Source of the DNA: Bryum argenteum
Taxonomy: Eukaryota; Streptophyta; Bryopsida; Bryales; Bryaceae
Length of the DNA stretch: 64,000 nucleotides
Direction: 5' to 3'
NCBI GenBank assembly: GCA_037043015.1
Contig: CM073327.1
Span: 1,966,727-2,030,726, forward strand
Part shown: positions 5,701 through 54,722 of the stretch, piece by piece
Numbering within the stretch: position 1 is the stretch's first letter
Layout of the letters: every line of letters starts with the position of its first letter
Position numbers and translations under genes: made by a program
Notes under the pieces: generated by a model
Databases searched by the model: none
Seen by the model: the letters and a program-made list of their open reading frames with translations, nothing else
Told to the model about the DNA's origin: nothing

Positions 5701-8432
5701 TATTTCATAACATAATATATCCAAGGTAGAGTATATATTTTTTGTAAAAAGGTTAACTAATATACTAGATAGAAATTGCATCATTCCGCGTCCTCTTGTG
5801 AAAACACAAACATACCAAACTTGAACAACCAAGGAGAGATATGAAAGTTCAAGTTTAGACTTCCCATTGATTCCAATTCTGAAAGGAAGAGGGAAGTCTA
5901 GTTTTGGATTAAAAAAAAAGAGTGAGTAATAACATACCAAGTTAACAAATAAATTGGTTGAACAATAGGTGTGGGTGCAAGGCTATTTACACCCCACATA
6001 TGGTCCTTATATCTTGCTACATTCTTAGTCCACAACATGGTTCCAAATTTCCTATTTGTATTAAGGGTATTGGGAGAACTTTAATTATTTTTTTTACGAA
6101 TCACTTATATCCTAAATTAGATCCCATATATACATTTCTCATATTAATACACATAGAATTTAGTGTTGTTCTTTATTAGTATGATGATTTTTAAAATTAC
6201 AATATTTGTGAATGTTTAGGTGGAATTGCGAGTTGGGAGACACTTGCAATATGCAGTTCCGGGTGCAGGATTCAAAGATCCTCAATATGAATCAGGATTT
6301 GTGACTGTGATAAGAAGAACCCCTGATTTTCCTGAAGGAAAAGCAACCGCTTTATTCAACTGGAAAGCCATTGCTATGGAGGTAAAATTGCATTAACCTC
6401 TTCATTTGCTTTTAGCATTTTGAGTGTTATTATATGTGCATTCTAGGTGCAAGAGTTGCTATTTTTGTAACGTGCAAAAGTAGAATATAAACCTATACAA
6501 ATACTAGTACACATGAGTTGTTGATTAGTGTCAGGTTTATCTAAACTTTGAACATTTTATAAGTTTTTAGTCTTGGTATAAATTTTTACTAGGAGTATTG
6601 ATTCTAAATCTTATAGAAAATTTTCCGTTTTGACCCATGAAGAGAATAAAATTATTGATTAGGAATAAAATTTTATGACATGTTTATGTAAATTAGTGCA
6701 TGTAACACCAAACAAGAACTCGTGTGTAGTGAAACAATGTGCAATTTTCACCAAGCTTTCCCACTACTATGTTCACCAAGAATGTCTCATTGCAGTATAT
6801 TCTATTGGAATCACTCACTTTAGCTTGGTAGAAACTACACACTTTTCCAATACACAAGAGTTTTTGATTAGTGTTACATGCACCAATTTACATAAAGTTG
6901 TAATAGATACTATATACTAGTTGAGATGGAGATTTTTAAAAGAATATTGGGATCAGTGCACTCGATAAATATTTAAGTCAAGGGTAAAACATAGCATTTT
7001 TAAGTCTTAATAACACGTAACACTAATCAACAACTCTTGTTTAGTGAATAAATTGACATATGAATTGGACTTGTCTACTATTGAGTTGCATGATGAACCT
7101 TTTAGTTACCTTGGACGTGATATGAGACATTTCTATAATTTTTCCGGTAGTATTTCAAAGTATTGTTATTCAGTTGCTAATATTTATTCTTTGGAATTTT
7201 CAGGTTCTGCCCGAGGAAAATGTGATGATGGTTATGTTGATGATGATAGTAGTTGCTCTAGTTGTTCAAAATTGGTTCGAACAAGAGACAATGTACCTAC
7301 AACCACTTGAGAAGACAAAGACCAAGATAACAAATTCTTATGCCGACAAAAATGGCATAATTTGGGGTAGGCAACTCTATCCATTTAAGTTGGTTTTGAT
7401 TGTGCACGATATACACTAAGATTTAACATTTTCTCTGTAGTAATAAAAAAATTCAAAAAATACACAAGTTTGTACTTGATTCACAAATTGGAGTAATCTA
7501 AAAGAAGTACTAGCAACTAGTAGTCTTAATTCCAAATCCTATTAGTAAAAAGTATCTCAGGAAATTCAACAACATAATATTCATTATTAATTCTGAGAAA
7601 TCCACTTCCAAAGTAGATTTTCCTATTAAAAGTTCTTAATCTTGTGTTAGCAGATTTCAATTTATATATATTTCTATGTTTGTTTATTGGAGATTTGTTG
7701 TTTAGTAATGAAAATTAGAATTTTCATGTTTAGCTTATAGTGATGGTACTACAAATGATCATACTTATGAACATGTTTGATTCTTGTCAAATTTAATGAA
7801 AAATGACATAAAAAATGGGTACTGGGTACACTAGATGTATTGATTGCTCACTTTCGATTTTTAAGACAGCTGAGATTATTTTATGTGAATATGTGATTAT
7901 AGGTGCAGTGAATATGGATCCCAACAATGGCATGGCACTAGCAGCCTTGTTGAGGCAATTGAAAGCTTTCAACATTGATGCAAAAGGGTGGCGTGAAGAA
8001 TTAAACAAAAAGCCACAATCTCAGTGGCCCACAGAAACCTTTGAGATGATAAATGATATATTCGGTGGGGGTGTCAATCTTGGTGAACTTGCTGGCTTTG
8101 AAGGTGGTTATTTCGAAAAACGCAAATCCACATTTGGTGAACTTGTCGGAGGTGGTGTCGGTGGCGGTGGCATCGGTAGAGGTCGAGGAGGTGGTGACGG
8201 TGGTGATTGTGGTGGTGGTTGTAGTGGTGAGGGTGGTGATTGCGGTGCTGGAGGTGATACTGGTGGAGGAGGTGGTTCGGGTGGAGGTGGTGGTTGCGGC
8301 GGTGGTGGAGGAGGTGGTTTGGGTGGAGGAGGTGGTTGCGGCGGTGGTGGAGGAGGAGGTTCGGGTGGAGGAGGTGGTTGTGGCGGTGGTGGAGGTGGTG
8401 GTTCGAGCGGAGGAGGTTCTAGCGGCACGTAA
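2714..8432 (+). CDS. C2-like / glycine-rich-tail protein, tandem copy A (GRDP/DUF1399-related)
   Basis: Exons 2714-2851, 3229-3755, 4370-4512, 5438-5619, 6220-6381, 7204-7366 and 7903-8432 join in phase to 614 residues. The start is the ATG opening MASSWLSKVMGTS, conserved in copy B. Residues 1-46 carry a Gln run. Residues 47-220 begin VFINVKGARNLPEI and look like a C2-type beta domain. A middle part contains PDFPEGKATALFNWK, reminiscent of the C-terminal region of plant glycine-rich domain proteins. A hydrophobic Met/Val stretch (about 390-405) follows, and residues from about 520 are a Gly-rich tail with scattered Cys. The N-terminal DUF1399 repeats of full GRDPs are absent, so this is either a shortened relative or a separate family. 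Introns 2 and 3 hold SINE pieces. Gene structure is well supported; function is not known. Confidence 0.72.
3810..4075 (-). mobile_element. SINE copy, 5'-truncated, in intron 2 of copy A
   Basis: The reverse complement matches the body and 3' region of the full SINE at 27137-27489: the GGCGTGAAT...GTGT CCGTTCG-like tail, the CCCCTCTCG block, GGTATCCCC.AAGG, TTTGAGGTACCCATACAAC and GTTGGATGGACTAT. The tRNA-like head is missing. It is more diverged than the 27 kb copy, so probably old. Confidence 0.8.
5262..5390 (+). mobile_element. SINE 3' fragment in intron 3 of copy A
   Basis: Shares CACCCTGAGAGGGG and then GGTCGAACGGACACTTTATT, CTCGCCAACCC and GGGTCCAGTG with the last 130 bases of the SINE at 27137-27489, in the same orientation as the host gene. 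Confidence 0.72.
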
Positions 8433-8581
8433 TTACAACTATACAAGATTTGATGATTACTGTTATGTGGAGATTAGTGTAACGGGTATTTTTTGATAAA
8501 TAACACTATTTCTCAACTCTCTTGAAATTAGTGTTCACTTTGGGCCACCATTGAGATCAATGTTCCTTGTCTTTTCTTTAA

Positions 8582-8806
8582 CCCTTAAAGGTCCCTTGGG
8601 GATAGTATGTACGGTGGCGTATAATTGAGATTTGCTACCAACAAGAAACTCTATATTGAGATCTTAAAAGCTTAGTAGAACCGCATGGATTTATATGTCA
8701 ACTTGTTCTTTGAACTCAAATCTATTAAAGGTGTGCACTCATTCCAATACAAACAAAATACGCTGTATTCTAGCAACCAAAATATGGTTGTTCAGACCTT
8801 TAAGGG
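8582..8806 (+). mobile_element. 225-bp TTAA MITE, copy 1
   Basis: Flanked by TTAA on both sides (8578-8581 and 8807-8810). The inverted ends are CCCTTAAAGGTC and GACCTTTAAGGG, a perfect 12 bp. A copy of exactly the same length lies inverted at 42542-42766. TTAA target duplication and CCC-starting ends are the piggyBac superfamily signature. There is no coding capacity. It sits 150 bases after the stop codon of gene copy A. Confidence 0.88.
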
Positions 8807-8810
8807 TTAA

Positions 8811-12502: not shown

Positions 12503-15500
12503 ATGTCGTCGAGCTGGTTGTCGAAGGTGATGGGAACAAGCGCCGCTCCCGGTCCAAGTGTTATAGGACTGCCTCAGGATACTTATCAGCTGCAGCAACA
12601 GCAACAACAAGAGCACCTCACTCCAAGAGCGTGCTTTCAGGTACCGGCCTGTTGCTCTCTCAACAGTTCCATTTCAATCTCCTAAAACTCGAGAGTAACG
12701 ATATCGAAATAGCGTATAATTGTAGCCACTTCTTAACTCATGACCATCAAACAGAGAGACAAGTTCAAACTAGCACAAAGCAACCTGAAAGATCGATAAC
12801 CTCACCGTGATGTATCTCGGCAAGAAGCTCAAACCCGATTTTGCAGTTCCGAAGCTTTTCTGCAGTATGAGAATCGAACAGTGTACTGACTCAGTGGCTA
12901 TGGCTATGGCAACCCCGCAGGTGTTCATCAACGTGAAGGGAGCCAGAAACCTCCCCGAAATCTCAAAAAAGAAAGGCTTCTATGTGACAGTTCGGGGATT
13001 AGAGACCACCGGGAATTTCACTCTAGAAACCCCCACATTTGAAAAACCAGAAGACATCCACTTTCCAGGTGAGCACCGGATGCTCCACATGGAGGCCTCA
13101 TCAGTGGGCATAGCCGTGGAGCTCACAGCAATACGCACCATGTTGACCCAGAAAGTGTCGCAGCAACTGGGAAGGGTGATGATCACGTTCCGGTACCTGC
13201 AGCAGCAAAAGGATCAATCCGTGGAAGCGTGGTTCAGTTTGGGGAACGAGAAGCACGCGCCGGAGTTGCTTGTGAAACTGAGGCTTGTAAGCGAGGTTCC
13301 CGTTGCGGCGCCATTCCTGCTCCGAGCTGTAAAAGGGGAGTTTCAGAAAGATAATCTGGAAACAATTGTGCCCAAGAAACGGGTGAAAGTGCCGGAAGGA
13401 CGATGGTCTACTCGTGTTATGCTCGATCACTTCTCTCAAGAGAAATACCTCGTTCGCGTTCGGTGAGTTCTTCCTTGCATTTCCTTTACACTATGGTAGA
13501 AAAGTGGAGAAGTCCAGTAGAGTAGTTCCTTAAGGATTTCACTTTTCACCAATTGCAGATAGATAGAAACTCTGATAGGGGCCGGCGTGAATGAAGTGTC
13601 TGTACGTAATGCTAATAGCCCGATGGCCTTCACCAATTGCACAAACAAGAGTCTTAGTTTTGGTTGATTTTGTTTTTAAAAAAATTTCAATCATTTTTGA
13701 CTGAGGTGATACGCTCAATAATAGTTTAGATTTTAGTATGGAAAATCTACATTATAAGCAAGTTATGTGTATGGGCAAAGTAAGGAGAAGGATAGACCAA
13801 GTATCGAGGCATCATCATTTATGGACTCTTCTACAGTTTGTTATGAGTTTTATAAGCTAGACGTGTACTAGGTGTTTTTAAAATGATGTTGTAACCCTTT
13901 TCTGTTGGCAAAGGCCTTCAACAAGTGTATGAATGTTTAGGCCTTGGACATTTTTTGACCATATCAGGGTCTTCTCGGCGGTAAAGGGTTAAAATGACAC
14001 TCTTTGATGTTTGTTGTGACAATGGAGTAGAGTGGATTGTTAAGTTGTTGTGTCTTTGGGTTGTGAATGCAGAAGAGCTAAGGTGAAAACAAGATATCAA
14101 AGGCAGTTCAACTCTGGTGTGGAAGAGTGGGAAAAAGAAGTGTGTATATTCCAACAAAGAGTGGTTTTTGATGCTTACCGCCGAAGAAATACGACTGTGC
14201 ATACGGGTTCAAGTAAGTTCAAGCATTGTTTTAAATTGCATATGGTTCAAGTATTATGCCACTAGAGTTGATTTTAGCCTTTATATTTTATTCTAAAGAA
14301 ATTTGTGTGTGACGATGCAGTTGCTGGACGGGCTGAACAGATATTTGATGCACACTCCTTCAAGATAAATAGCCACATACAACGTGAGTGGTTTTTATTT
14401 GGAACCAAGGATGTTACCCTCAAAGTGCAAAGGGATGTAGGCAATGCTCAATGGGCTGACAATTTGCACCTTCAACTTGTTGGCGGGGGCTTTGGCTATC
14501 CTGTAAGAGTTTGTCCTATCATTCTATCTCTCCAAATGTTATTACTACAAACGTTGCAAGTGATGGTATTTGAACTCTTTTGAGGGAGGGTAAAAATTTC
14601 TATTAAAATATGAATGTATTTGTGAGGGGGAATTGAAACATGTACATTTCATAGAGCTCGTTAATATGATCCTATTCTTCAATTAACTACATTTGGTCAT
14701 AAGTGGTGTTTTCATTTACCATGATACTTGTTAATATTGTGAATTCTGTAATATGTCAGGTGGAATTGCGAGTTGGGAGACACTTGCAATATGAGGTATC
14801 TGGTGAGAAATTCAAAGATCCTCAATATGAATCAGGATTTGTGACTGTGATAAGAAGAACCCCTGATTTTCCTGAAGGAAAAGCAACCGCTTTATTCAAC
14901 TGGAAAGCCATTGCTATGGAGGTACTGCATTCACCTCTTACTTTGCTTTTAGCAATTTGAGTCGTATAGAATGTGTCTTGTAGTTGCAAGAGTTGCTGTC
15001 TCTAAAAATCTTTAAAACCCGGAACTTGTTTTGAGGATTCTCGGGAACAAAATTCAGTCAACTTTGACAGTTATAATCTCACAAATGGAGAAGAATCAAT
15101 AGTTTGAAATTGGCATGCAAGTAGTATGTTATGCTAACTCCAAGATCTTACAGTTGAATCCTCTAATTGGGCTTTTTTGGTCTTGAAGTAGGAGGTTATT
15201 ATTTGTAATTTAGGCAATTTTGCACCAAGGATCTCTAGACGTCAAATAGTGTGATGGTAGAATATTAACCTATGCAATGAATTGCTAATTAAGTGAATAG
15301 GACTTGTCTACTAAACTCATTAACCAATTTCCTTGACAATGACTCCAAAAAATACTGATTTTTACTTTTTTGGAGTACTTCAAAATAATGTTAGGCTAAG
15401 TACAATTTTGGTTGATTCTTTTTCAGGTTCTACCTGAGGAAAATGTGATGATGGTTATGTTGATGACCATTGTAGTTGCTTTAGTTGTTCAAAGTTGGTA

Positions 15501-20958: not shown

Positions 20959-21332
20959 TCGGTTGTTCGACATGTAAAACGCCGGAGCCTCGTTCATACC
21001 GGCGAGGCGGCGACATGCATGCGGAGCTGTGAGTCAAAAGTTCAGCTTCTCCGTCGTCTCCTCTAGATCCTCGTCGGTCCCACAACAGAGCCGCCGCAAG
21101 CCTACTAGAAAGGAAAGAAAGCGTGTAAACGCCTGACAAATCGTCATTCTTCAGTCAGCGGACACAGAGACCTCGAATCAATTGCGGAGCGGCACTCAGT
21201 TCATCATTAGTATTCACACTCGGCGGACCCTGGTGCACAATATGATCGCTCAATCACCGCTAACTCACTTACTCACTCAATCGATCGTACTTTACCCTCA
21301 CTGATAGTTTTTGGCAGCATAGTTAGATAGAT

Positions 21333-21857
21333 ATGGAGTATTCCAGGACCGGATCGATGGGGCCCTGCATCGATCTGAACTTGTCACCCCAGTTAGTGCA
21401 AGAGCTTACAGACTCCTTCCGATTCTTCGACCGCAATGGCGACGGCCAAATCTCGAAAGAGGAGCTTGGGAGCGTCGTTAGGTCGTTGGGGCAGAAGGTG
21501 AGCGACGCGGAGATCGAGAAGCTGATGAGCGAGGTGGACAAGAACGGAGACGGATTCATCGACCTCCAGGAGTTTATGGACTTGAACACCAGGGCTATGG
21601 CACCATTGCAAGTGTCAGAGACGAGATCGACTACTAGTGGTTCCGAGTTGCAATCCGCCTTCAATGTGTTCGATGTGGACAAGAATGGCTTGATCTCTGC
21701 CGAGGAGCTTCACAGTGTGCTGGCTGGGTTCGGCGATGAGAAAGTGTCGCTTAAAGATTGCCGCTCCATGATTCAGTGCGTGGACGAGGACGGTGATCAG
21801 ATGATTAACTTTCGTGAATTCGAAGCTCTGATGAAGTACGGCTCTTTCCTCTTGTGA
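21333..21857 (+). CDS. Calmodulin-like calcium sensor with four EF-hands (single exon)
   Basis: Cytosolic or nuclear calcium sensor of the plant CML type, 174 residues and intronless as many CML genes are. EF-hand loops: residues 33-44 (DRNGDGQISKEE), 69-80 (DKNGDGFIDLQE), 114-125 (DVDKNGLISAEE) and 151-162 (DEDGDQMINFRE). Loops 1-3 have all calcium ligands. Loop 4 has Gln instead of the usual Gly at position 6, which may weaken binding but leaves the acidic ligands. The linker between the lobes (about 84-105) is longer than in calmodulin. The first ATG is taken as the start. The stop codon begins a tandem repeat that fills the start of the 3' UTR. Targets are unknown. Confidence 0.93.
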   Translation: MEYSRTGSMGPCIDLNLSPQLVQELTDSFRFFDRNGDGQISKEELGSVVRSLGQKVSDAEIEKLMSEVDKNGDGFIDLQEFMDLNTRAMAPLQVSETRSTTSGSELQSAFNVFDVDKNGLISAEELHSVLAGFGDEKVSLKDCRSMIQCVDEDGDQMINFREFEALMKYGSFLL

Positions 21858-36387: not shown

Positions 36388-37290
36388 TTGGTAACGGCCC
36401 AAGGTGAGTTGTATCTGTCAAATCCCCTTTTCGGGGTGATTCAAAGTGAGTTTTAGATAAACTCCTTAAAATGAAAATCAAATAATATACAATATGTATT
36501 AGGTCCTTATGAGTACTTTTGTCATGTTTTCCTTTTGACATATTGATACACAAATTGATATCTCATCAACAAAAGTGTATTCACCAAGATAACTCTAGCA
36601 AGAGACACTCAACTTTCTTACAGTATGTCCAACATTCTCACAAAGAAATACAATCAAAGCTTAACTAAGGTCATTGAAATAAGATTGGCCCACGCTACTA
36701 GCACAGATACTTTGAAGCTTTATGAGCATAAATTGTGGAGTTTGAGTACTTAAAAAAATCAAAAGTATTGTATCATCACTTTGTCCATATTTGTTTTGAA
36801 AGTAAAAGGAGGTTATAATTATTAAGAGTAATTTTGAGAAATCAAGTTACTCCTTTTTAAAATAACTAATTTTTTATATTAAAAATAGAAGAATTTTACT
36901 TCGAATTCAATGTTGGTGTTGTGAAGAAAAATATCTTCATCACTTTCTTTGGAATTTCCTTTCATATGTACCTCAAAATATATTATTGTACCTATTTTCA
37001 AGTATCTATGAATTATCATAAGACATCTCTTTTTCACCAAACAAGATTTCAATCCCTGACAGTGTTTCAGGTCAATGAAATTTGATCACCAAATGAAGAT
37101 GAAGTTCACCGCAGTCCTTTCAAGCCTCAAACCTTTGTTTCTTATCATCTACCCTTTCTACGATGAGGTTACAGTAACTTGAATTGAGTCGCCATGATGC
37201 TTTGAAATGATCTAAACTCTCAATTCTTTCATTGAAATCACATCGTCTTGCTTTCCTGAGATTACTTTTTCTTCAAAGCGAAGTTGAACA
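36388..37290. other. Intergenic, AT-rich, no gene recognised
   Basis: Only short frames. Presumed promoter of the EMSY-like gene at its right end. Confidence 0.5.
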
Positions 37291-38040
37291 ATGGTGAACA
37301 AGCGGCCTAGGTATGAGAGCACAAGTGAATTGGAGTTTGAGGCATACCAGAATGTACTTAGATCATACAAAGCACAGTGGGATAACATCCATGTTCTTCA
37401 AAAGAGGATGTCTGCGCTTCACAAGAGACTTACACGATCACGAAAAGAAGTTAACAATTCCGACGAGCATGACACAGAGAAGCGGAAACAAGGGTTCAAG
37501 AAGCAACGAAGACCAGAGGGTGCGATACCGAAATCGCTTGTAGGGCAGAGGCTGTCGATCTTGTGGCCGCCGGAGGATAACGTACGCCGCGACGTTCTCG
37601 TTACTGAGTACGATAAGAGTACCGACTCGATTTGCGTGGAGTTTCCTGATGAAAGCTGCGCGTGGATCGATGCGGCGACGGCGAGAGTGGACACCGAACC
37701 GTCGATCGATCAAGGAAAAGCAGAAGCGCAAGGGTTGGATGTTAGTGCCATGCAGTTGCTGGTGAATCGGCGACTCCGAATCAGGTGGCCGGAGGATAAC
37801 AAATTCTACGAGATCTTGGTTACGAAGTTCAACGAGAAAAACGGCATGCATCGGCTAGAGTATGGCTCCAGGACTTCGAATGTAAGCTGGGAATGGGTGG
37901 ATTTGACAACTCTTGATGAAAATGATCTGCAATGCCTCGAAGACGATGAAGATGATGACAATCAACTCTTTACCGCCGGGAAGAAGGCCGTGATACAATC
38001 GAGAAATCTCCGAAGCCGGCGGAAAAGGGTTAAAGAGTAA
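37291..38040 (+). CDS. EMSY-like protein: short ENT region and two Tudor/Agenet-like domains, intronless
   Basis: Probable chromatin reader, 249 residues. Residues about 14-58 (FEAYQNVLRSYKAQWDNIHV and a following Leu/Arg helix) resemble the ENT domain of EMSY-like (EML) proteins, which act in histone-mark recognition and defence/flowering control in seed plants. Residues about 150-205 contain RRLRIRWPEDNKFYEILVTK and VSWEWVDLTTLDENDL, close to the EML Tudor domain (RKVWTRWPEDN.FYE, TWEWVDL). Residues 84-130 (LVGQRLSILWPPEDN) are a second, more diverged Tudor-like unit. The end is acidic and then basic (LRSRRKRVKE), a likely nuclear signal. Plant EML genes usually have several introns; this one has none, suggesting a retrocopy. 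A SINE sits at the stop codon. Confidence 0.8.
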   Translation: MVNKRPRYESTSELEFEAYQNVLRSYKAQWDNIHVLQKRMSALHKRLTRSRKEVNNSDEHDTEKRKQGFKKQRRPEGAIPKSLVGQRLSILWPPEDNVRRDVLVTEYDKSTDSICVEFPDESCAWIDAATARVDTEPSIDQGKAEAQGLDVSAMQLLVNRRLRIRWPEDNKFYEILVTKFNEKNGMHRLEYGSRTSNVSWEWVDLTTLDENDLQCLEDDEDDDNQLFTAGKKAVIQSRNLRSRRKRVKE

Positions 38041-40749: not shown

Positions 40750-42950
40750 ATGGGACAATTAGCTTCAAAAGTTGGATCGATTTACGGGTCTCCTGATGAA
40801 AGGCCAAGGCTTGAATCACCTCAAGGATCCGTTTATGGCTCTACTGATGGATCATCCCCTCGATTCGGCAATGAATCCAATTATGGTTCTAGCAATGAAA
40901 CTAGTTATGGTTCCGGTAGCGACATGGAATCTCTTTCATCCAAAGAAAGTTTAGGTGAAGGCAAGGAGAATGATAAACCTCTTATCATGGTACTTGGTAT
41001 GTTTTTACATACCCCTTTTACTACATCTTGAGTAAGTACAAATCTACGTAAAATTTTGGTACAAAAGTGTAGAAAATGATAAACTCGCATTACATACTCT
41101 AGGAACAGATCTCATCAATGAGCAAGACAACATTACTTGACTAGTTGTTGTGCATAAAGGGCAAGATTGTTTAGGGACCAAATTGGATCAATCATTTACC
41201 TACATCTAGGTTTCAGGCACTTTTGACACAAATTGCTCTTACTAGGCTTCACAATATGTTGTTGTGGAGTAGATCTATTGGAATGTTTGAGGATGTCATG
41301 GATTTGTACGAATGTGTTATACATGTGATTATTCACACCTAAACAATGAATGAGTGTTGATGTACGCAGGTGGACCGGGGACAGGGAAGGGCACCCAATG
41401 CGAGCGCATGGTGGAGGAGTTTGGTTTCAAGCACATCTCCTTGGGGAACATCCTCCGCGAGGAGGTCAAAAAGGGGACTCCTATTGGTCTTGAATGCAGC
41501 AAGATCATAAAAGATGGCAAATTGGTGCCTACAAATATGGCAATGACACTCGTGAAGAAGGCAATGGCTGAATCCAAGGACGCTAACGGCTTCATTCTAG
41601 ATGGCTTCCCTCGTGCTACTAGCCAAGCCCATGCCTTCCAAAAACAAGTATGCCCTACCCTGTCACTCATGCCATCTCTTGTCCAAAAGTAAGGATAATA
41701 ATAGAGTTGCAAGGCTATTTCCTATGAGAGTTAGTTGTTGTTCAGGAGCTATAAGTGCCCATGCCTTTCAGAAACAAGTATGCCCTACCCTATCACTAAT
41801 GTCATCTCTTCTCTTGTACAAAAGCAAGGATGATAATAGGATTGCAAGGCTATGTCCTATGAGAGTTAGTTGTTCAGGAGCTCTAGAAAAAGGTGCATCA
41901 TTTATTCAAATTATGCACGTCATGTGTCATTGAATTCAACCGAGTGCAAAATTTCACAAGATTTTTACAACACTATATTATTTCTCAATTTTTTATTTAT
42001 TTATTTTTTTTTAATCAACTACATGGACAATTGTTTTGTTAAGACTCACAAACAATGATTTGTCTTGCATCATTCTTGCACATTTGTAGATGAAGGGCCC
42101 AACATTGGTATTGTACCTGCATGCACCGGAGCATGTGTTGCTACAGAGGCTCATGGAACGGGGTGCAGAAAGCGGGCGAGATGACGACACGTGCGTGACT
42201 ATCCAAAATCGTTTCAACACCTTCAAGATGGAGTCGCTCCCTGTGATCCAATACTACGAAAAAAAATCCCCCTCAGCTGTTCGGAAGGTGGGTTCTTGTT
42301 CAACCCTAAAAAAGTACTCCCTTTGTCACATTATATTTGTCTAGTAGGTTCTCTCAAATCTACTTTCTGAGGTAGAATATGAATAATTTTTCTTAATCAA
42401 AATGAACATGAGAATAGCAATAGCAGATCGTGAATGCACAACAACAAGTATTTGAGTTCATTTTATAGTATCGAGTCTTTGAAATGCACGAAAACAAATC
42501 TTATTTCATGCGTATATCTTGATGTCATTCTCACTATTTAACCCCTAAAGGTCTGAGCGTGCCGTGGCGACCAGTAGAATACATTGTATTTTGGTTGTAT
42601 TTGGAGTGAATGCACACCTTTAATGGGTTTGAGTTCAAAGAAGAAGTTGACATTTGAATTAATGCGGTTCTAGTGAGCTATTACGATTCCAGTTTAGAGT
42701 TTCTTGTTGGTAGCAAATCCTAATTATACGACAACGTACATACTATCCCCAAGGGACTTTTAAGGGTTAAAGAAATCCTTGATGTTTTTTTGAGGCTATG
42801 AAAGACTTCTATACACCACCCAATTCAGTCAAAGAGTGTTTAAGTTAACGGTTTCAAATTCTCTGCCAGGTCTGTACAATGAACGCGCCAGACGATGTGT
42901 ACAAACAAATCCAGTCGGCAATCAGAACTGCGGTACCTCTCTCCACTTAA
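40750..42950 (+). CDS. UMP/CMP kinase-like nucleoside monophosphate kinase with an N-terminal extension
   Basis: Transfers phosphate from ATP to UMP, CMP or a similar nucleotide. Exons 40750-40996, 41370-41647, 42090-42287 and 42870-42950 give 267 residues. P-loop GGPGTGKGTQ at about 83-92; NMP-binding part HISLGNILREEVKKG; ILDGFPRATSQA; lid GRDDD, followed by RFNTFKMESLPVIQYYE. The lid and C-terminal pattern fit UMP/CMP or adenylate kinase 1-like enzymes; exact specificity is open. The first 80 residues are extra: MGQLASK could be N-myristoylated, then IYGS, VYGS, NYGS and SYGS repeats in a Ser/Gly/Glu-rich, probably disordered stretch. Exon 2's end is duplicated in intron 2, and a TTAA MITE lies in intron 3. 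Confidence 0.85.
41627..41884. repeat. 130-bp tandem duplication of the exon 2 end and splice donor
   Basis: GCCCATGCCTTCCAAAAACA at 41627 recurs as GCCCATGCCTTTCAGAAACA at 41757. Both are followed by the donor GTATGC and by ATGTCATC/ATGCCATC, AAGGATRATAATAG and CCTATGAGAGTTAGTTGT. The second unit keeps an intact donor and several possible upstream acceptor AGs, so a small alternative exon is possible. Confidence 0.88.
42542..42766 (-). mobile_element. 225-bp TTAA MITE, copy 2, in intron 3 of the kinase gene
   Basis: Flanked by TTAA (42538-42541 and 42767-42770), ends CCCCTAAAGGTC and ACTTTTAAGGG. It is the inverted copy of 8582-8806, with long matched blocks (TTTCTTGTTGGTAGCAAATC, GTACATACTATCCCCAAGGG, GCACACCTTTAAT, GATTTGAGTTCAAAGAA-like). 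Confidence 0.9.
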
Positions 42951-43898: not shown

Positions 43899-45058
43899 TT
43901 AGTGGACATGGTTGTGGGTTACCTCCAGGAATCGGATCAAGCTGTCTCGGCTTTCGGGCTGGATGTGCGAGATGGTACTGGAGAGGCGCACGACGACGCC
44001 GTCCAGGGTGATGCCAGACTTCCAATCCTGGCCTTCCTCGGTGGCCGTCATGGAGAATTTTAACACGAAAGGTTGGACGTCGTGCTCGTCGACTGTAAAC
44101 TCGCCAACATCGTATTCCCTCCATCCACCGTCCACCACGCGGATGGTGGGCATGGGCAGGCGAAGCTCGCCGGCCGATCGTCGTCGGTAGCGCGGCGGCC
44201 GGGGATCGATGAAGCATTGGCGCTCCACGACCTGCTCGTCGTTCTTCGACAATCGGAACGTCACCGGCTTCTCTCCAAAGTTTTGCAATCTGCTCAACAT
44301 GATCCGCCAGCATGCCGTGTAGGTTCCTGCTGGCAAGCTGCACTCCATCTCGCCTTTCGCTTCCAACCAGCACACTGTCGTCAATTGTGCCACCTCCGGA
44401 AACCTGCCACAGGAACAATAATGTCCATTTTTAGGGTTGGAAGAAAACTTGGACGATGCATAATCCTCTTTCTGAGAGAGATTGTTTAGAATGTGAGGAG
44501 TGGAGGGGGGCTTACCAGGCGTGGTGGAAATCGGGAACCCACTGCCAATACTGACGCGCATCAATGTGCTCGATGTACATCCCGCGTGCGGCCATCGCCA
44601 CACATAAACCTCCCGTCGCGCGTTCCATCCTAAAACCCTACGCATTTTTGTTACCACTCGATCAGCCTGCTTGTACCGATCCAAATATGAGAAACTGGCG
44701 GTACGCGATCGATGTATACCTGTGTGTTGTCGGCGAAGAGGATCAGATTGGTGCAGAGATGGTCGAACAGGTCTCTCTCGCTGGCAAATTGCTCCAGCGC
44801 CACAAGCTCACTGTACTTAGCCGGTAGATGCGAGACCGCGGCGTGCGCCCACACGGACTCGAAGGCCGCCGCTGCTCGAAACGATCGGCACACGCACGCC
44901 GCTCTCGCAACATCTCGCGGCGGCATGCGGCATAGAATCAGCGCCACGAAATCGACTGGAAGATCGCCCAAAAAACTATTAGCCTCCTTCTCCTTGTCCC
45001 CCTCACCAGTATCTACGTGCAGCAACGAGAAAGCTCTCGAATCCATCACCGACACCAT
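43899..45058 (-). CDS. F-box protein with PP2 (phloem protein 2-like lectin) domain
   Basis: Substrate-recognition subunit of an SCF ubiquitin ligase, with a carbohydrate-binding type domain. Exons (minus strand) 44720-45058, 44516-44637 and 43899-44403 give 321 residues in phase. F-box at about 30-70: LGDLPVDFVALILCRMPPRD and CRSFRAAAAFESVW. The PP2 domain starts GFRMERATGGLCVAMAARGM, with YWQWVPD, WFPEVAQLTTVCWLEAKGEM and the pattern TACWRIMLSRLQNFGEKPV. This is the order of Arabidopsis F-box/PP2-A proteins. MVSVMDSRAF gives two possible starts five residues apart. The minus-strand frame continuing past 44720 is intron. Confidence 0.9.
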
Positions 45059-46045: not shown

Positions 46046-46049
46046 TTAA

Positions 46050-46309
46050 CCCCTAAATCTCGTTGTTGCAAAACTGTCTAAGTCACAAAATTTGACCTTC
46101 CTTTAGATTAAGCGCAAGAAATCTCAATCTAAGCATTATTTTAAAGATTCAACCGTAAGATCTCAAAGTTCACTTGACATTCTTTTCACACACCAAATTT
46201 GAACTGTTCATTCTTCCTCATTTGTGAGATTATAATGGTCCAAGTTGGCTGATTTTCTCTCCCCCGAGAACCTCTGAAACCCGTTTTGGGTTTTAAGGAG
46301 AGTTAGGGG
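46050..46309. mobile_element. 260-bp TTAA MITE of a second family
   Basis: TTAA at 46046-46049 and 46310-46313. Ends CCCCTAAATCTCG and CTCTAACCCC-type: reading inward from the right end gives CCCCTAACTCTCC. A related, degraded copy lies at 15010-15230. It ends 64 bases before the left TTAA of the piggyBac element. Confidence 0.75.
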
Positions 46310-47264
46310 TTAAGATAAATTGAACAACTAATGAGGTGGCTTTATAATTTTGTGAAATAATACCAAATTCCTCTTAACCCCTAAACGTTTCGATCCATTA
46401 GGGTGGCTGGAGAAAGGTCGAAAAAGGCAAAAAGTGTCAAACTCGTTATTAGAGAGTAGAAGCAGTAAGGGGAAAATCCAACCGTAGGATCTTCATCTCT
46501 ATTGTCTAGATATTGCATGGGAAAAATTTTGTGCCACTTGGAGTTAGGGAGATGCTCCATCCACATGATTGAAGCCCAAAAATGAGGGCCTGAAATGGGT
46601 GGGCAGGCACCAATTTTGGACTTTCATCCAAAAAGTCATATTGAGGATTGCCCCTAAGCCAATTTTGGTAAACTACAAAGGTAAGGGGCATGAAAGAAAG
46701 AAGCTATTTTTATAAAAAAAACAAACAATGGACCTTCCATTCACCCACAATCTGGCTTGCAATGCAAGTAGCTTCAAAACATTGTTTTAGGACGAGGCTA
46801 TTTGAAGCTTGCCCAGTCATGCTCTTGTCCTTCGTGAACAAGGGGCGGGCAGAATTTAGAAAGAAAACAAGCAAAAGAAGGCATGGTGAAGCCGTTGGGT
46901 GGTCGACACAAATGCTAAAAGCAAAAAAATATTCGCAACGAGCCAAAAATTCGGGCATATGTCCCTGGCGGCAATAAATTGCGCCTTGCCCCAATAACGA
47001 CCTCTGCGGATGTGCCTCGCCTCCCATCTACGGGTGATGAGGCAAGGAGGTAAGGGGGAGCCCGATGCACCCCTCTCCCGCCGTCGATCGGCTCAAAGCC
47101 CCCCGTTGTGGCCGCCTCGATCTCTTGACCGGTCCGTAATTCCCCGCCCGCAGATCGAGCTGTTAGAGGCCGGTCCGCCACTCACCGAGTTGACTCCCCC
47201 TTGGCGGCCCCCATACCTATGCCCATCTTTGTGGAGCATAGTCGTAGCAAAAAAATTGCTCCCC

Positions 47265-47309
47265 GGAAGTTGAGTCCCCGAAGTCGAGTCCCCGGAAGTT
47301 GAGTCCCTG
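47265..47309. repeat. 15-bp tandem repeat (GAAGTTGAGTCCCCG)
   Basis: Three imperfect units inside the 3' part of the piggyBac element. Confidence 0.8.
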
Positions 47310-47499
47310 TACCAAAAAAACAACCGAAATCCCCGCAGCACAAATTTTTAGGACCAGAATCCTTGAACTTATGAGTGGGTTCATACAACACTAAAATTCA
47401 TGGCCAAATGGGTTATAAAAATAAGGTGGTTCAAAAAAATCAACCAAAGAAAAAAAAAGGGAAAAAATAAAAAAGCAAATGTGCTAAGAAACTTACATG

Positions 47500-47862
47500 T
47501 TCATCTTCGTCGTGCAAAATGTGACTTGTTGAAGCAATCACCCATGTGGTACCAAACACCACCACAATCTCTACAAACAAGATTGGTAGTCGTTTTTTTC
47601 TTTTGCAATACGCACATTGATGTCTACCACGTGGAACCTTCTCGAGCCCATGAACACCCCGGTGTATGTGGTTAGAGAGACCACACCCTTCCTGTTCTCT
47701 CTCCACTTCTCCATAAGTGAGAATGCCAAGGAAGTCACAACTCCAAGTGATTCTTAGGGGTCTTCCCTAAGTCCAAATTCTCCCGCTTGTGGATTATCCA
47801 CGAGTTTGTAATTGACAAGTCTATCAAAAACATAAAGATACGGTGCCACCACTTATGCGTTT
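47500..47862 (-). pseudogene. Frameshifted C-terminal remainder of the piggyBac transposase, with the Cys-rich domain
   Basis: After about 47862 the main frame runs into a stop, but the adjacent frame continues the expected transposase sequence (KWWHRIFMFLIDL). Further shifts near 47730 and 47660 lead to a Cys-rich end: CAYCK, then CRDCGGVW and CF..SH, read in different frames between about 47620 and 47505. This is the zinc-binding tail by which piggyBac transposases recognise their ends. At least three single-base changes separate the pieces, so this copy probably makes no complete transposase. Confidence 0.78.
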
Positions 47863-50800
47863 TGGATAACGCCGTATATACGCCCGAAGTTGGTCACTCA
47901 CATCTACGCCCGCATCATACGGGTGTACTCCAAGTGTATAGGAGAGGTGGGTATGTGCTCGTCGACCACGGGTGTATCGGGGCACCGTAAGAGGCACCTC
48001 GGGATTCGGCGACAACGGCTCCGCATGCGTAGACAACAACAAAACCGGTTTTTTGTCAACCCACACAAGAGCGCATAACGTACCGGTGCAATGCATGCGC
48101 CAATCGGAGCTCCCTTGGGTTTGCTTCGCCCACCGCCGCTTGTTCACCAAGTCGCTTGGCAAGCCGATCCGGTTGGCGCGTACGGTGCCAGTAGCATAAG
48201 TCCCCAAGTCGTGTAAATCTACAAAGAGTTTGGGAGAGGTGAAGAAGTTGTCGGTGACGACCACATGCCCCCGCCCATGCAATCCCTCCATCAAGCCCAT
48301 CACCACCTCGTATCCGGTTTTCGCCTCTCCCGGTTTCGCCGTGTGTAGAGATTTCTTCAAGTCCGCCCCCGTGTAGACTTGAAAGTTGTAAAGGTATTTG
48401 GACTTCGAATCGGCCATTGCCCAAATCTTGAACCCGAATTTGACCGGCTTGTTTGGCATGTATTGCTTCATGCCGTGGCCATACATTCCTTTGTACCTAA
48501 CCGTGAGTTCGTCAACCGTGACAAATTGGCCAAGATTCCAATTTGCAACGCATTGAAGTCTCACCTCTTCAATTAGCCACCTCAATTTTACTAATTTGTC
48601 AAAGTTAGGGTCATTTCTATCGGTTAGGGCACTAGAATCATCATAAATGTGCAAACACTTCGTTATTGCCTCATATCGCTTCATGCTCATAGTGTTAGCA
48701 ATGGTTTGGCAATAATAAAACTTAGAATTAGTCTTCCAATAGCACCTACGGTTAGGTTCTATTTTCAAACCCATAAGTATAGAAATTCCCAACCATGCCT
48801 CTAATTCGGGGACCGTCAAACTCCACCAATCTTTTGGCCCTCTAGTGAATCCGGTGGCGGGGTCAATGGAAGATGCATAACGGTTAGATTCCCTCACTAT
48901 TTTCCTCAAAGTCTTCTTAGTGAAGAATTTGTAGAACAAGTCTAACAAGGTGGAAACTTTTCTAAGAACATAAGGGGGTCCCTCACTAGGCCCCTTGAAA
49001 ACAACCTCATCATGGGTGTAGGTTGACCGAAATTTACCCCAATATTCATCTTTATAACAATCTTTGAATGTTGGCCCATTATCCCAATCCCTTAGGCCCC
49101 TTACCGACTCTCTTCTTCTGCCCCTTCCCCCATTAGGAACCCCACTTACCATCATACTATGGTGAGAGATACGGTCAGTAGATGTGTTAGAAAAATAAGA
49201 TGGCAAACTTTGAGAGACACCCACCCTCCCTTCAGAACTCTCTGATGGCACCCTTACTGCCATGTTTACCATTGGCCCCAAGTTGTCATGAGAGGCCCCA
49301 TATTGCCTGCCATCCACCAAGACGTCGTGGGAGGCCCCACTGACAGCAATGTTTGGCCAATCTGGTATGGTTATGTCGAAAAGAGCCGTGGAAGACTGAC
49401 TGCCAGCCAGAGGCAACGTTCCTTCCCCGTAGCTCGGCGCTGCCAGCTCACAGCTCGGATCAGCCTCCCCTTCAATAACTTGGCCCATACCACGGCTTCC
49501 CCCGCCCATGCCTTGCTCTTCTAGCCCAGGTATCGACATGCGGGCTTCGGTGGGCATAATCCCATGACCGGGCTGCCCGGTCAGCGGCTCTCTCAGCCTG
49601 GCCTCCTCCGGTCGATGCGGTATCTCCAGCCCGTAGCTCCCAGCCATGAGACCGACCTCCCAGGTTTTCTTATCCACTGATCCGGTGCCGTTGGTGGTCA
49701 TTTTGAGAAGCGAAGTCTCCTGTCGCCGCTTCTGGTGGATCTCGGCAGCTCCAGGAGAGAGATGGTTCTGAAGGACCTCGTTGTGATCAACTTCTCGCTG
49801 CTCCAAGGCAACTCCAAAGTCATCAACCATGAGCATGAGATCTACATCATCGTCGCTATCGGAGTCCTCTAAATCGCTCTCGTCAGCTTGATCACCATGT
49901 TCTTCTAAACTGTCTTCTTCTTGAGATCCCTGCACTAGAGTGTGAGCATGAATTGTAGTAATCTCACCAAATGGAACTTCTTTCGTTTCGTCATTGATTT
50001 GCACTACATACATCAACCTAGAAGTTAAATCACACACAAAGCTTCTGATGGTGATTCCCCTCACCCACTGTTCATCACTTTCGTTCTCCTCTTCTCTCAT
50101 GTTACTATCTAGATCAATCTCCCTTCTTTGATTTACTCTAACTTCTACTGGTTGAATGATATTGCGTGGCAAATCTAGAACTTCTTCTCTGGACCTTCTA
50201 ACAACCGCACATTTCTCACGTAAGTTTTCCTTGCTCCTACTGCTTATCTTCGTGACTACTCGCCTCCCACTTGTGATCGTAAAAGTCGGTTGCTTTGTTG
50301 TTGATCTTGTCCTCCTGTTGATCGAGGCAGTGGACAGCGACGGCGCAGGTCCAGCCACTGTCTCCGCTCTGGATCTCGTCCTCCGAGCCGCATTCTTGTC
50401 TAGTTCGGAGGTTGTAGGCAGCCCCGTCGACGTACCTGCTGGTCGCCAGGGCAGTCGGATCTGCCGCTCTTGTGAAGCCGTTGGAAGAGCTCTCCCACGT
50501 CCTGCAATCAAACTTGATGGTTGACTGAACGCCTGCGAGGGATGCGCACCCTCCACCTCCCTCCGTCTCTCTGATCTGCGCAGCGAACCCGTTGCGAGGG
50601 AATCTAGCGCTGTCGGCAGACCGCAGACTTCCAGATGAGGCGCGACCTCGTTTGTATCGACAACATCCTTCTCGGCTAGCACCTCCGCTGTGGAGGGTAC
50701 CTCCGCCGTGACTGGCACCTCTGCTGTGCACGGTATCTGCGCCGCCGTGACTAGCACCTTCGCCGTGTTGGGTATCTGTACCGCCGGTGGCATCTTTTTG

Positions 50801-50937
50801 CCGTGGATGGCGCCTCCGTCGTGGTGATCCTCCACCGGGATCTCTGATGACTGCAGTCTTTGGATCTCGGTATGCTCTTGGAGTGGCCATGAGGATCTTT
50901 GCGATCGTGTACCTCCTCCTCTCTCTGTCACCTCCAA
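47824..50937 (-). CDS. piggyBac transposase with long N-terminal extension, C-terminus lost by frameshift
   Basis: Open frame of 1037 codons. The DDE core starts about residue 633 (WGKFRSTYTH) and carries LEAWLGISILMGLK, the first catalytic Asp at about 809 (FVTVDELTVRYKG), the second at about 896 (VVTDNFFTSP) and the third at about 1012 (GVDVSDQLR). These are the piggyBac D-D-D positions. The first 630 residues are not typical: a TAEVP-type repeat region (about 55-90), basic and Arg-rich stretches, a compact part around 295-345 (GITIRSFVCDLTSRLMYVVQ) and an acidic run (about 350-385). They may be one or more extra exons or a fused element protein. The first ATG of the open frame may not be the true start. 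The last part of the transposase follows in other frames. Confidence 0.85.
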   Translation of the reverse strand: MEVTERGGGTRSQRSSWPLQEHTEIQRLQSSEIPVEDHHDGGAIHGKKMPPAVQIPNTAKVLVTAAQIPCTAEVPVTAEVPSTAEVLAEKDVVDTNEVAPHLEVCGLPTALDSLATGSLRRSERRREVEGAHPSQAFSQPSSLIAGRGRALPTASQERQIRLPWRPAGTSTGLPTTSELDKNAARRTRSRAETVAGPAPSLSTASINRRTRSTTKQPTFTITSGRRVVTKISSRSKENLREKCAVVRRSREEVLDLPRNIIQPVEVRVNQRREIDLDSNMREEENESDEQWVRGITIRSFVCDLTSRLMYVVQINDETKEVPFGEITTIHAHTLVQGSQEEDSLEEHGDQADESDLEDSDSDDDVDLMLMVDDFGVALEQREVDHNEVLQNHLSPGAAEIHQKRRQETSLLKMTTNGTGSVDKKTWEVGLMAGSYGLEIPHRPEEARLREPLTGQPGHGIMPTEARMSIPGLEEQGMGGGSRGMGQVIEGEADPSCELAAPSYGEGTLPLAGSQSSTALFDITIPDWPNIAVSGASHDVLVDGRQYGASHDNLGPMVNMAVRVPSESSEGRVGVSQSLPSYFSNTSTDRISHHSMMVSGVPNGGRGRRRESVRGLRDWDNGPTFKDCYKDEYWGKFRSTYTHDEVVFKGPSEGPPYVLRKVSTLLDLFYKFFTKKTLRKIVRESNRYASSIDPATGFTRGPKDWWSLTVPELEAWLGISILMGLKIEPNRRCYWKTNSKFYYCQTIANTMSMKRYEAITKCLHIYDDSSALTDRNDPNFDKLVKLRWLIEEVRLQCVANWNLGQFVTVDELTVRYKGMYGHGMKQYMPNKPVKFGFKIWAMADSKSKYLYNFQVYTGADLKKSLHTAKPGEAKTGYEVVMGLMEGLHGRGHVVVTDNFFTSPKLFVDLHDLGTYATGTVRANRIGLPSDLVNKRRWAKQTQGSSDWRMHCTGTLCALVWVDKKPVLLLSTHAEPLSPNPEVPLTVPRYTRGRRAHTHLSYTLGVHPYDAGVDVSDQLRAYIRRYPKRISGGTVSLCF

Positions 50938-51055
50938 TGCGAGATGGTTGCCGGGTGATGCGCTTGAAGCGGATCGGGATTGAGCTCACATGGTGCATCA
51001 CATCGGTCTTCTTTGGAGCGATGTCGCGCCTGGATCGCCTTGTAAGAGGCTTGGC

Positions 51056-51481
51056 TCATAAGCGTCGGGTTCTAGCAGGACGGGCAGCTGGTAATTGTTG
51101 ATTTCTTCCTCCACATGCAGATGCTCCATCTCCCTTGATAGGTGTGTTGATTTGCTCCTTGTTGTCCTCATCTTGTGCATTAGGCCAAATTTGCCTCACT
51201 AATGTGTAGAGGAGAGGACTAATTCCATGGATGTCTCCTTCAGGTACTCTCTCCTTCCAACCCAAGGTTGAGCTCACATGGTGGTAGAATAAATGGCGCA
51301 ATCCAGCAGGTGTGTCATGCTTCTCTACCTTGGAGGAGCATGGCAATGTCAACAAAACTTCTCTATCCAATAAGTCTAACAAAAACCCAACTTGCAAGTC
51401 TCCCAAGCCCTTCTCTTGTTTTCCCCATTTAACAATCTCTTCCCTCGCATCATCAAGCAAATTTGCCGTTGTTGTCACCAT
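51056..51481 (-). CDS. Hypothetical ORF inside the piggyBac element, upstream of the transposase
   Basis: 141 codons on the transposase strand, 119 bases before its first ATG. The first 100 residues look protein-like (DDAREEIVKWGKQEKGLGDL, then LRHLFYHHVSSTLGWKERVP); the end (after about 125) looks like read-through. It may be a separate element protein or the first exon of the transposase gene. No family recognised. Confidence 0.4.
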   Translation of the reverse strand: MVTTTANLLDDAREEIVKWGKQEKGLGDLQVGFLLDLLDREVLLTLPCSSKVEKHDTPAGLRHLFYHHVSSTLGWKERVPEGDIHGISPLLYTLVRQIWPNAQDEDNKEQINTPIKGDGASACGGRNQQLPAARPARTRRL

Positions 51482-52228
51482 TTTATGTCTACTTAGGAAA
51501 CTTTGGAGTAATTGGCATTGAGGCTAAATGGTGGTGGAAGTGTTTACTTGAGCCGCCCATGTACACCTATTTTCAAATTTGAATATGATGGCATTGAAAG
51601 TTTGTGGTTGGAGTGTGATTTCCTAGGTTAGATTTTGTTTTCAAATTCAAATTTGAATGTAAAGAGGTGGATTTACACATTTTGCAATAGATTTGCCATT
51701 AGTGCATTGATGATAGTTGGGTATAGTATGGTAAAAACATGTTTGTAAGGTGTTCAAATTTGAAAACTCCCTTTGTGCCCAAAAACCAAGGGATGACCCT
51801 TCTAAAACAGTCATGCAATCAAAAAGTGATGGTTTGAACTACCTTGACGGTTGCAATAACTCTCAAATCCTCCATTCTTTCTAATTTATGGCCACCTCAC
51901 CCAAATCCTTCTTTCCAATTGCCCTTCTTTTCCAAATTGGCACCCATGCCCCACTGCCCTATTTCATTGCCCAAATGGCAAATTTTCACACAAAATGGAA
52001 GAAGTTGTCCCTCAAAACAAAAGTGCAGCCCACTCAAATCGCGATTGCAAAATATGGGAGGAAGAATTGACAGTGGGGTAAAAACAGCAATAAACTAGAT
52101 CCGTTTACCCATTGGGGGAAAAAATCGCCGGATGAAAAAACGCGAGGATGAGAAGACGGGGAGATTTCAAACATCCCTGGCTTCATCCAGAATGTAGAAA
52201 AACGACATTCGGCCCGCTTAAGGGTTAA

Positions 52229-54722
52229 GATCTCAAATATCGCAAATCTTCAACACGACGAATATGTGGATTTATCAAAAACTTGGAATCCCGCCCTTGC
52301 AAGATTGAAGCATGCTCTTGTGGAACTCATAAAGTATTCATTAAAACACTTGGAAATTTTAGTATAAACTTGATTAAATATAGATCACCAAAAAGGTAAT
52401 CTAAAATCTTGAAGATAGAAAGATTAGAGCTAGCTCACGTTGGCTTAAAAAATTGAGATTCGTAATTCTTAATTCACACTTCTCTTTCTATACTTCTCTA
52501 TCATGAAGCTCTTTATTTACGAAAGATTACAAAAATAGATGAAAAAATTGTTATTCCATATAATCCCTAAAGTCGTGTCATATGTTGAATTTGATACAAG
52601 TTTTTAGTGAAGGCAACTTCTGCTTTTAGGTTTTTGGATTTAAAACATGTTGTATCATTGCGAGCCAATTATGTGAGATCAAGAATAGTTTTTGATAATT
52701 TTTCTTTTATTTATTTATTTATTTTATTTTATTCTTACATAAGTATGATCTCAAGATAAAATCCAGATCATATTTTGTAGTTGGAATTTTTTTGTTTTGA
52801 ATAGTTTAGGTCTTGGATTTGCAATGATGTTTCTTTGTTTAAGTAGTGAAAAAATTACATGGTTTTTGAGGAAAATTGTCTCATTCATCCACCATTTAAG
52901 TTCATATTTTATTTTTTTGTTGGGATTGATTCCGATGTGGATCTAGTCTTCTTAGCAGAAACCTTAGTTCCATCTGACATGTGAGGAAGTTATGGCACTC
53001 ATTTTTGTGCAAAGAGCCTAGTTTTTGACATTTTTTCCTTCGTAAACTATTAGGCAATTGTCATCATGGTAAGGCCATTATTTACCCACAGACATTCTTT
53101 CAGAGTTTTTTATTTTTTCAAGGGTCTTATTGAGATGGAGGTAAACATCTTTGTACTTGGTGATTTTTTCATTGCAAAAAGTCTATTGGTAATAATATCA
53201 CTTCGAAGTTAAAATGATGAGACTTTCAGATGTTTTCAGAAGACTACTACGTCACGATCTTGCAATCTATGAGGCGTTATGACTCAAAATTTGACCCACA
53301 TGATGTACAATATGTCTACTATAAGATTCTATCGTTGAGATCTAAATAGCTTAACTTTGTTTTAATTTATGACACTGTTTTTGAGAGTGTGTTCCTTTCA
53401 CTACAAATGCGTGAAACCACTTAGGTATTAAAGCCCTTCTGTTGTAATACCATGTATCATTCAAAGGACTGGTCACAAAATGCTACTTAATGAGATCACA
53501 CTTTAGTTCACTATGTGTTGAAGTGCAAGTCAAATGAAGGATTTCTTTAGACAAACTTACTTGAGAATTATCAATTTTTCATAGTTTTTGAAAAATGTGA
53601 AGTTTTTGCGTACCTCCGCCCAAATCAAGCCACATAGATGATTGTATACACCTCCAATGGTAGGTAATTATACAGTGCAACCTATGTTTGAGATATCACA
53701 TGTTCTTAACCCCTTGTAAAGTTGTAATAATGAGTTAGAATCCTCCACCCAAAATCTTTTCAAGTGCCCAAATTCCATTAAATTCTTGGATCTCTCAATC
53801 CGCATAATAGAGAATTTTCATTTTTTTCTGAATATCTCATACTAGTGCTCTAAAAGATCCTTTGGTTACAATTTCTTACTAGATTGTCTTTTGGAGATTC
53901 AAAAAATTCATTCATTGACTTCCTCATTTTGGAAAAAAATTGAAGGTTGGTACTCCTTAGGGGTTAAATTTCACCAATCAAAAAGTAAAAAGTCATATGA
54001 ACCAATATGAACCATCCTTAGTCCAAGTGAAGCAATAAACTTTTTCTCAAACTTAAAACACAACTTCCTATCAAGTTAGTGGATGTTGTTTCTTTTGGTA
54101 GTATACATGAAATGATATTCTACAAAACATTGGTAAATGAAGAACCATGAAGAAAGTCTACTTATCCGCTTGATCAAGACTACTTAAAACTTTGGTGTCA
54201 ACTCATAAAAGTTGCACTTTAGTGATCTCTATCACAAGCTCTACGATGAAGACAACTTTCCATGGCAACTCATGTAGCTAGCATTGTAAATTTTAGAATC
54301 ATGACTCAATATATCATGAAATGATTTTTACAACCCAAACCTTTGAAATTAATAGTTTGTTAGAATCAAATGGACCTCTATTTTCGAATAGTTACATTTG
54401 ATATGATTGTATAGGAGTTTAATTCTTTAGTGAAACCTAATTTTTCAGTATAGATATCATTACAACAAAATTTCAACTCACAAGTAGAGTCTTGCTACAT
54501 ACTCTCTTTTAGGAGATACATCACAAGATATGTATGAATTATCTAAATTGCAACAATGTTAAAAAATGATGTAATGTGTGTACAAGATGCACAATTATAT
54601 ATATACAATATGCATTATAATTATATCAAATCACTCTCAACTTGGGTATTGGGTATTGACAAGACTAAACTCATAACAAAATTACAAAAAGTGTGAGATT
54701 TTCTATGTAAAAGGCACCAAAC
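52229..54722. other. Intergenic, very AT-rich, no gene recognised
   Basis: 2.5 kb without coding signal, apart from the repeat at 53710-53963. The right end is the presumed promoter of the OSCA gene. Confidence 0.55.
53710..53963. mobile_element. Possible TTAA MITE, third type
   Basis: TTAA at 53706-53709 and 53964-53967, with CCCC starting each inward end (CCCCTTGTAAAG and CCCCTAAGGAG). Only the first five bases pair and no second copy was found, so this is weaker than the other MITE calls. Confidence 0.4.

Follow-up and report, generated by a model that had tools for sequence, protein, structure and literature searches.

Sequence evidence for a decayed piggyBac-superfamily transposon in a moss genome and for a large, partly recent population of its relatives

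Transposons of the piggyBac superfamily are jumping genes known mainly from animals, in which piggyBac has become a main transposon of genome engineering. The transposase of Trichoplusia ni (T. ni) piggyBac brings the two element ends together in a synapse, cleaves them with a triad of aspartates (Asp), transfers the element to a TTAA and leaves its old site by seamless excision; we take the triad to be D268, D346 and D447. To our knowledge, the natural history of piggyBac in land plants is nearly blank. Here we describe an element located at 46378..52224 (flanking TTAA not included; transposase on the minus strand) in a 64,000-nucleotide stretch of contig CM073327.1 (assembly GCA_037043015.1, positions 1,966,727 to 2,030,726), hereafter called the window, whose own numbering is used throughout. 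The evidence presented below makes it very probable that this element is a decayed, once autonomous DNA transposon of the piggyBac superfamily in a moss nuclear genome, and that it is a member of a large, partly recent population.

For land plants, the accessible portions of the literature give traces or labels of piggyBac. A repeat table for Ceratopteris assigns 1230 pieces, together 122,417 bp or 0.00% of the assembly, to piggyBac (PMC6890710), and a table for Stipa assigns it one piece of 75 bp (PMC8319324). In the accessible passages of a review on miniature inverted-repeat transposable elements (MITEs) of angiosperms, PiggyBac is given as a superfamily name only (PMC10004981), and the accessible part of a 2015 survey counts PiggyBac among the superfamilies present in all groups studied. 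The word piggyBac is absent from the accessible text of a paper on Physcomitrium transposons, which describes Mariner elements with fungal relatives, and in PMC10619864 the word is 'piggybacking'. No paper on piggyBac in mosses was found, as judged by titles, the beginnings of abstracts and passages in a search that left the subscription literature mostly uncovered. Because the land-plant literature holds traces and labels and none was found on mosses, the element is of a known kind and its host is the news.

The first-pass annotation of the window, made from the letters alone, had placed a piggyBac transposon at 46378..52224, and these coordinates proved to be exact. The element, 5.85 kb in size, lies between TTAA target sites at 46374..46377 (left) and 52225..52228 (right). 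It starts with the inverted end CCCCTAAACG (46378..46387, plus strand) and finishes with CCCTTAAGCG as read on the minus strand (52215..52224), both ends conforming to CCCYTAARCG, and the right terminus shows GGG at 52222-52224 followed by TTAA at 52225-52228. With TTAA included, the termini form a 16-nt inverted repeat that is 88% complementary. Hence the window element has terminal inverted repeats starting with CCC, and TTAA is present at both ends in this copy and in two more copies. Both ends of the window copy appear intact.

The main transposase reading frame, recognized from the list of open reading frames (ORFs) and from the comparison of copies, occupies 47824..50937 on the minus strand and encodes 1037 aa; it is lost at its C-terminal end. 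Residues 666-1026 (47860..48942, minus strand) match the DDE_Tnp_1_7 domain (PF13843) with an E value of 1.5e-64, an assignment also backed by the fold. Alignment to solved structures placed the three catalytic Asp codons, all on the minus strand, at 48511..48513 (residue 809), 48250..48252 (residue 896) and 47902..47904 (residue 1012), confirming the earlier reading of a DDE core with all three Asp between TTAA sites and CCC-type ends. In sequence comparisons with solved transposases, the 1037-aa ORF matched piggyBac (6x67; 2.3e-18) and piggyBat (9c0f; 1.1e-11), the alignment to 6x67 taking in the first two Asp and that to 9c0f all three. An AlphaFold2 model with the window core and 19 homologues as input had a predicted local distance difference test (pLDDT) score of 78.3, and a Foldseek search of the PDB with this model returned 6x67 (2.4e-20) and 9c0f (4.2e-18) at the top, followed by Tn5. 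The modelled fold is that of a piggyBac-superfamily transposase. Remains of the C-terminal part and of the cysteine-rich domain were found at 47440..47823 (minus strand), where they are split over three frames.

The scaffold that holds the 64-kb window is 18.7 Mb long and belongs to an assembly of 258.8 Mb and 25 contigs; its large scaffolds are C1-C11 (7 to 44 Mb for those whose size was seen), and C12 measures 114.6 kb. One LEAFY gene was found in this genome. Its DNA-binding domain scored 244.8 bits against 4bhk, which we take to be LEAFY homolog 1 from Physcomitrella, versus at most 173.5 bits against four other LEAFY structures, and it carries the motifs KMRDYVH and AWCQAC, with the Asp and Cys of the moss type (presumably Asp312/Cys345). 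On account of this score and of the Asp/Cys pair, the host is called a moss, and the earlier claim of a piggyBac element in a land plant was thereby borne out.

Comparison with the rest of the genome yielded two further copies of the element, one on scaffold C2 and one on scaffold C7 (hereafter the C2 and C7 copies). The result showed that the three copies are pairwise 97.7-98.0% identical over approximately 5.8 kb, that their flanks are unrelated and that the similarity ends at TTAA on both sides. The three copies sit on two large scaffolds, and the left 37 bases of the element were found at three genomic places with at most three mismatches (control, 0). In the C2 copy the C-terminal pieces lie in one open frame of 1226 codons, with the cysteine-rich domain in frame and PF13843 at full length (E 3.1e-76).

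Upstream of the main frame, an ORF of 141 aa at 51059..51481 (minus strand) encodes a conserved N-terminal domain. Its conservation and its position upstream of transposases suggest that it is probably the first exon of the transposase, spliced to the main frame. Segments upstream of three related elements share 66-70% identity with it, and the corresponding segment of another lineage shares 35%. Among 150 genome matches of the domain listed, 49 have a listed transposase of their own strand 1.4-3.1 kb downstream (random expectation, 0.4), and none lies within 9 kb of a listed transposase on the opposite strand, the count being based on an incomplete transposase list and not including the window's own pair. 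The ORF had no match in Pfam, and a profile of the domain searched against the PDB gave nothing below an E value of 0.5.

A genome search with PF13843 gave 776 candidates, and the best 116 were scored; the window copy, being lower-scoring, is outside these 116. All 116 passed the cut-off, and 93 of them have no stop inside the domain. Thirty loci were fetched and a frame could be read in 28 (none for L003 and L029); by reading, the frames of 21 of the 28 end in the cysteine-rich domain, and at 12 of the 28 loci the short stretch examined past the frame shows a GGGTTAA end. One lineage other than that of the window contains six transposase domains on five chromosomes that differ by 0-1 of 1149 bases, the base-by-base comparison in this young family covering these six domains. 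A 33-mer taken from the family had 62 exact matches in the genome (control, 0). Moreover, a genome search with the N-terminal domain of a related copy gave 398 candidates, of which 150 were scored; 58 of these share one score and one frame length, and in all 58 the 33-mer lies 2218-2230 bp downstream on the same strand, which marks a family of long, seemingly near-identical copies. Some piggyBac family of this genome may be moving today.

Together, the 116 PF13843 loci and the 62 sites of the 33-mer, 10 of which coincide, amount to 168 distinct transposase places on C1-C11. This distribution bears on the suggestion that 46-52 kb of the window is a contaminant or a chimera, an animal, oomycete or algal piggyBac having been joined to plant DNA in the assembly. 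All named relatives among the protein matches listed are indeed animals, as such an error might produce, but identity to the named animal proteins is as low as about 26-32% and these proteins fall outside the clade of the moss copies (see the trees below), the window lies in an 18.7-Mb scaffold of a plant genome that has a moss-type LEAFY gene, near-identical copies sit on two large scaffolds, the 168 places extend over C1-C11, and MITEs with the same type of end lie near plant genes in the window. The suggestion, which the first-pass annotation had itself raised, can practically be dismissed.

Phylogenetic analysis started from 164 sequences, of which 115 passed the coverage cut (L007 and L013 failed it); two isoforms of a fish protein were dropped, leaving 113 rows. 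The quick tree contained these 113 rows, 28 of them from this genome, and the careful tree contained 58 rows, 22 of them from this genome, hand-picked so as to omit long and near-identical rows. In both trees the copies of this genome fell in one clade together with unnamed environmental and Sequence Read Archive (SRA) proteins (support 99 and 100/99), and nine named animal species fell outside it. Within this clade the moss copies fall into five or more lineages, several of which are separated by unnamed rows. Unnamed proteins such as P0016, P0017, P0019-P0022 and P0001 show 43-58% identity across 68-96% of the core, and those long enough for the trees belong to the same clade as the moss copies; identity is 67-70% for two short ones, P0018 and P0052, which cover 39-55% of the core. 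The matches listed (15 of 15 in one search, 120 of 164 in another) included no protein from a named plant, alga, fungus or oomycete. When viral contigs were scanned with the core alignment, 25 stretches matched by pattern and none was confirmed.

The subfamily of the window copy has relatives in the same genome at 77-85% DNA identity. The ratio of nonsynonymous to synonymous substitution rates (dN/dS) was estimated for 16 pairs; the pair L046-L039, with 54 aligned codons, was excluded, and dS was saturated in L008-L015. The result showed that dN/dS was 0.066-0.117 in six of seven comparisons between the C2 copy and a relative (DDE and C-terminal part; 238-527 codons), implying that the enzyme was kept under selection during the spread of the subfamily. 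Among the other pairs, six younger ones gave 0.32-0.45 and two older ones gave 0.115 and 0.137. A long open frame and purifying selection in the relatives could likewise belong to a host gene domesticated from piggyBac and no longer a transposon, but the TTAA ends are intact, three dispersed copies have unrelated flanks and the frame is broken in the window copy. Domestication is accordingly given next to no credence, and the locus is treated here as a transposon.

Whether the element is a lineage-specific survival or came by horizontal transfer had been left undecided in the first-pass annotation. Long residence is favoured by these sequences over a recent jump from animals, because at least five lineages are present in one genome and the transposase has been under purifying selection. 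A recent transfer from an animal or another distant host into the moss would agree with the poor documentation of piggyBac in land plants, with the lack of a named plant protein among the matches listed and with the relatively high identity of the short P0018 and P0052. Against such a transfer stand the number of lineages in the same genome, the in-genome relatives at 77-85% with their strong purifying selection, and the longer outside rows, with their 43-58% identity; with nine animal species outside the clade, an animal source in particular finds no favour, and we regard a recent transfer as very unlikely. The first origin of the clade is another matter: an ancient transfer may or may not have taken place, and the unnamed rows may come from anything.

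Two MITE families with piggyBac-type ends were identified in the window from their ends and their genome matches. MITE-B (268 bp with TTAA; 46046..46313, plus strand) lies 60 bp left of the element, and MITE-A (233 bp with TTAA; 42538..42770, plus strand) is represented by a young copy; sequence comparison revealed an older relative of MITE-A at 8578..8810 (minus strand), which differs at 57 of 233 positions. Both families have TTAA, CCCYTAAA ends, short length and high copy number, the marks of piggyBac-type MITEs. For MITE-A there were 964 candidates, and scoring of 40 gave 41 matches at 97-100%; exact matches to its 30-base end number 526 genome-wide (control, 0). For MITE-B there were 2168 candidates, and the 40 scored were all at 92-94%, except for the window copy itself; its ends were found 610 times with at most three mismatches (control, 0). 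The MITE ends agree with the transposase-bearing ends seen over approximately the first 12-14 bases only. Both families were presumably moved by piggyBac enzymes of this genome.

Pairs of MITE-A copies 229 bp apart were observed at C3:10781398-10781859, at C2:15510331 and 15510560, and at C2:18330730 and 18330959, a spacing that fits head-to-tail neighbours with one common TTAA, as if one copy had inserted at the TTAA of another. The largest scaffold, C1, is poor in elements, with 12 MITE-A ends in 44.1 Mb, whereas C2 has 80 in 34.6 Mb, and C1 holds 5 of the 116 scored transposases. As a lead only, C1 may represent a sex chromosome or heterochromatin; the scaffold begins with 3000 bases read as N, and its sequence is possibly incomplete. 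An inverted TTAACCCC pair at 53706-53967 was considered as a third MITE and rejected, its 29 matches besides itself being 67-96% identical and mostly partial.

Several observations weigh against a once autonomous transposon of a moss. The frame of the window copy is broken ahead of the cysteine-rich C-terminus, a stop lies in the N-terminal exon of the C2 copy, and the C7 copy, too, is interrupted; therefore, none of the three copies seen of the subfamily is whole. AlphaFold2 applied to the N-terminal ORF alone gave a pLDDT of 49.5, a model unusable for searching, and an autonomous partner of MITE-A or MITE-B was not found. The assignment of the host to the mosses, in addition, rests on one gene. 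The window copy itself is most likely dead as a source of enzyme, and it may or may not still be movable in trans.

Other features of the window include an F-box/phloem protein 2 gene at 43899-45058 (minus strand), an EF-hand calcium-binding protein gene at 21327-21857 (plus strand) and an ORF at 37288-38040 (plus strand) with weak ENT and Tudor-like matches. Two similar genes are present at 3160-3759 and 12789-13466, the second with a weak match to the C2 domain of glycine-rich domain proteins (E 0.004, not reaching the cut-off), and the gene at 3160-3759 may end in a glycine-rich frame at 7812-8432, immediately ahead of the MITE at 8578. An unnamed protein, P0135 (source 'lgn'), is 95% identical to the gene at 12894-13466, which suggests that sequence data exist for the host or for a close relative. 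No Rfam family and no tRNA was found in the 64-kb window.

By analogy with the T. ni and bat enzymes, an intact transposase of this kind would bind the CCCYTAARCG ends and subterminal DNA through its C-terminal cysteine-rich zinc domain, hold the two ends in a synapse and then cleave them with the Asp triad, and transfer the element to a new TTAA with seamless excision from the old one. We see about an even chance that mosses carry an old piggyBac clade of their own, with a conserved N-terminal domain of approximately 90-100 residues for which Pfam and the PDB gave no match, and with at least one family now moving together with swarms of MITEs; if true, a land plant would have a naturally active piggyBac system. 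With its dozens of near-identical-looking coding copies and more than 1000 TTAA MITE ends, this moss would offer a plant host for studying movement, silencing and target choice, and with bryophyte genomes the spread of piggyBac through green plants becomes a testable question.

Like T. ni piggyBac (6x67/6x68) and piggyBat (9c0f), the moss transposase has the catalytic fold with the Asp triad and, in the moss relatives with an open frame, a cysteine-rich C-terminal domain. TTAA targets are presumably common to T. ni piggyBac and the moss element, and past CCC the end sequence, as we understand it, differs between the moss element and the T. ni and bat elements. In the fold comparison, the moss transposase is 20-25% identical to 6x67 and 9c0f. 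Its N-terminal part comprises several hundred residues with a conserved upstream domain, whereas that of T. ni piggyBac is described, in the accessible part of the source, as approximately 100 disordered residues (PMC9499001). The Ceratopteris, Stipa and angiosperm entries bear the same superfamily label; the moss, instead, has complete elements as well as copies that code, and it shows a recent burst.

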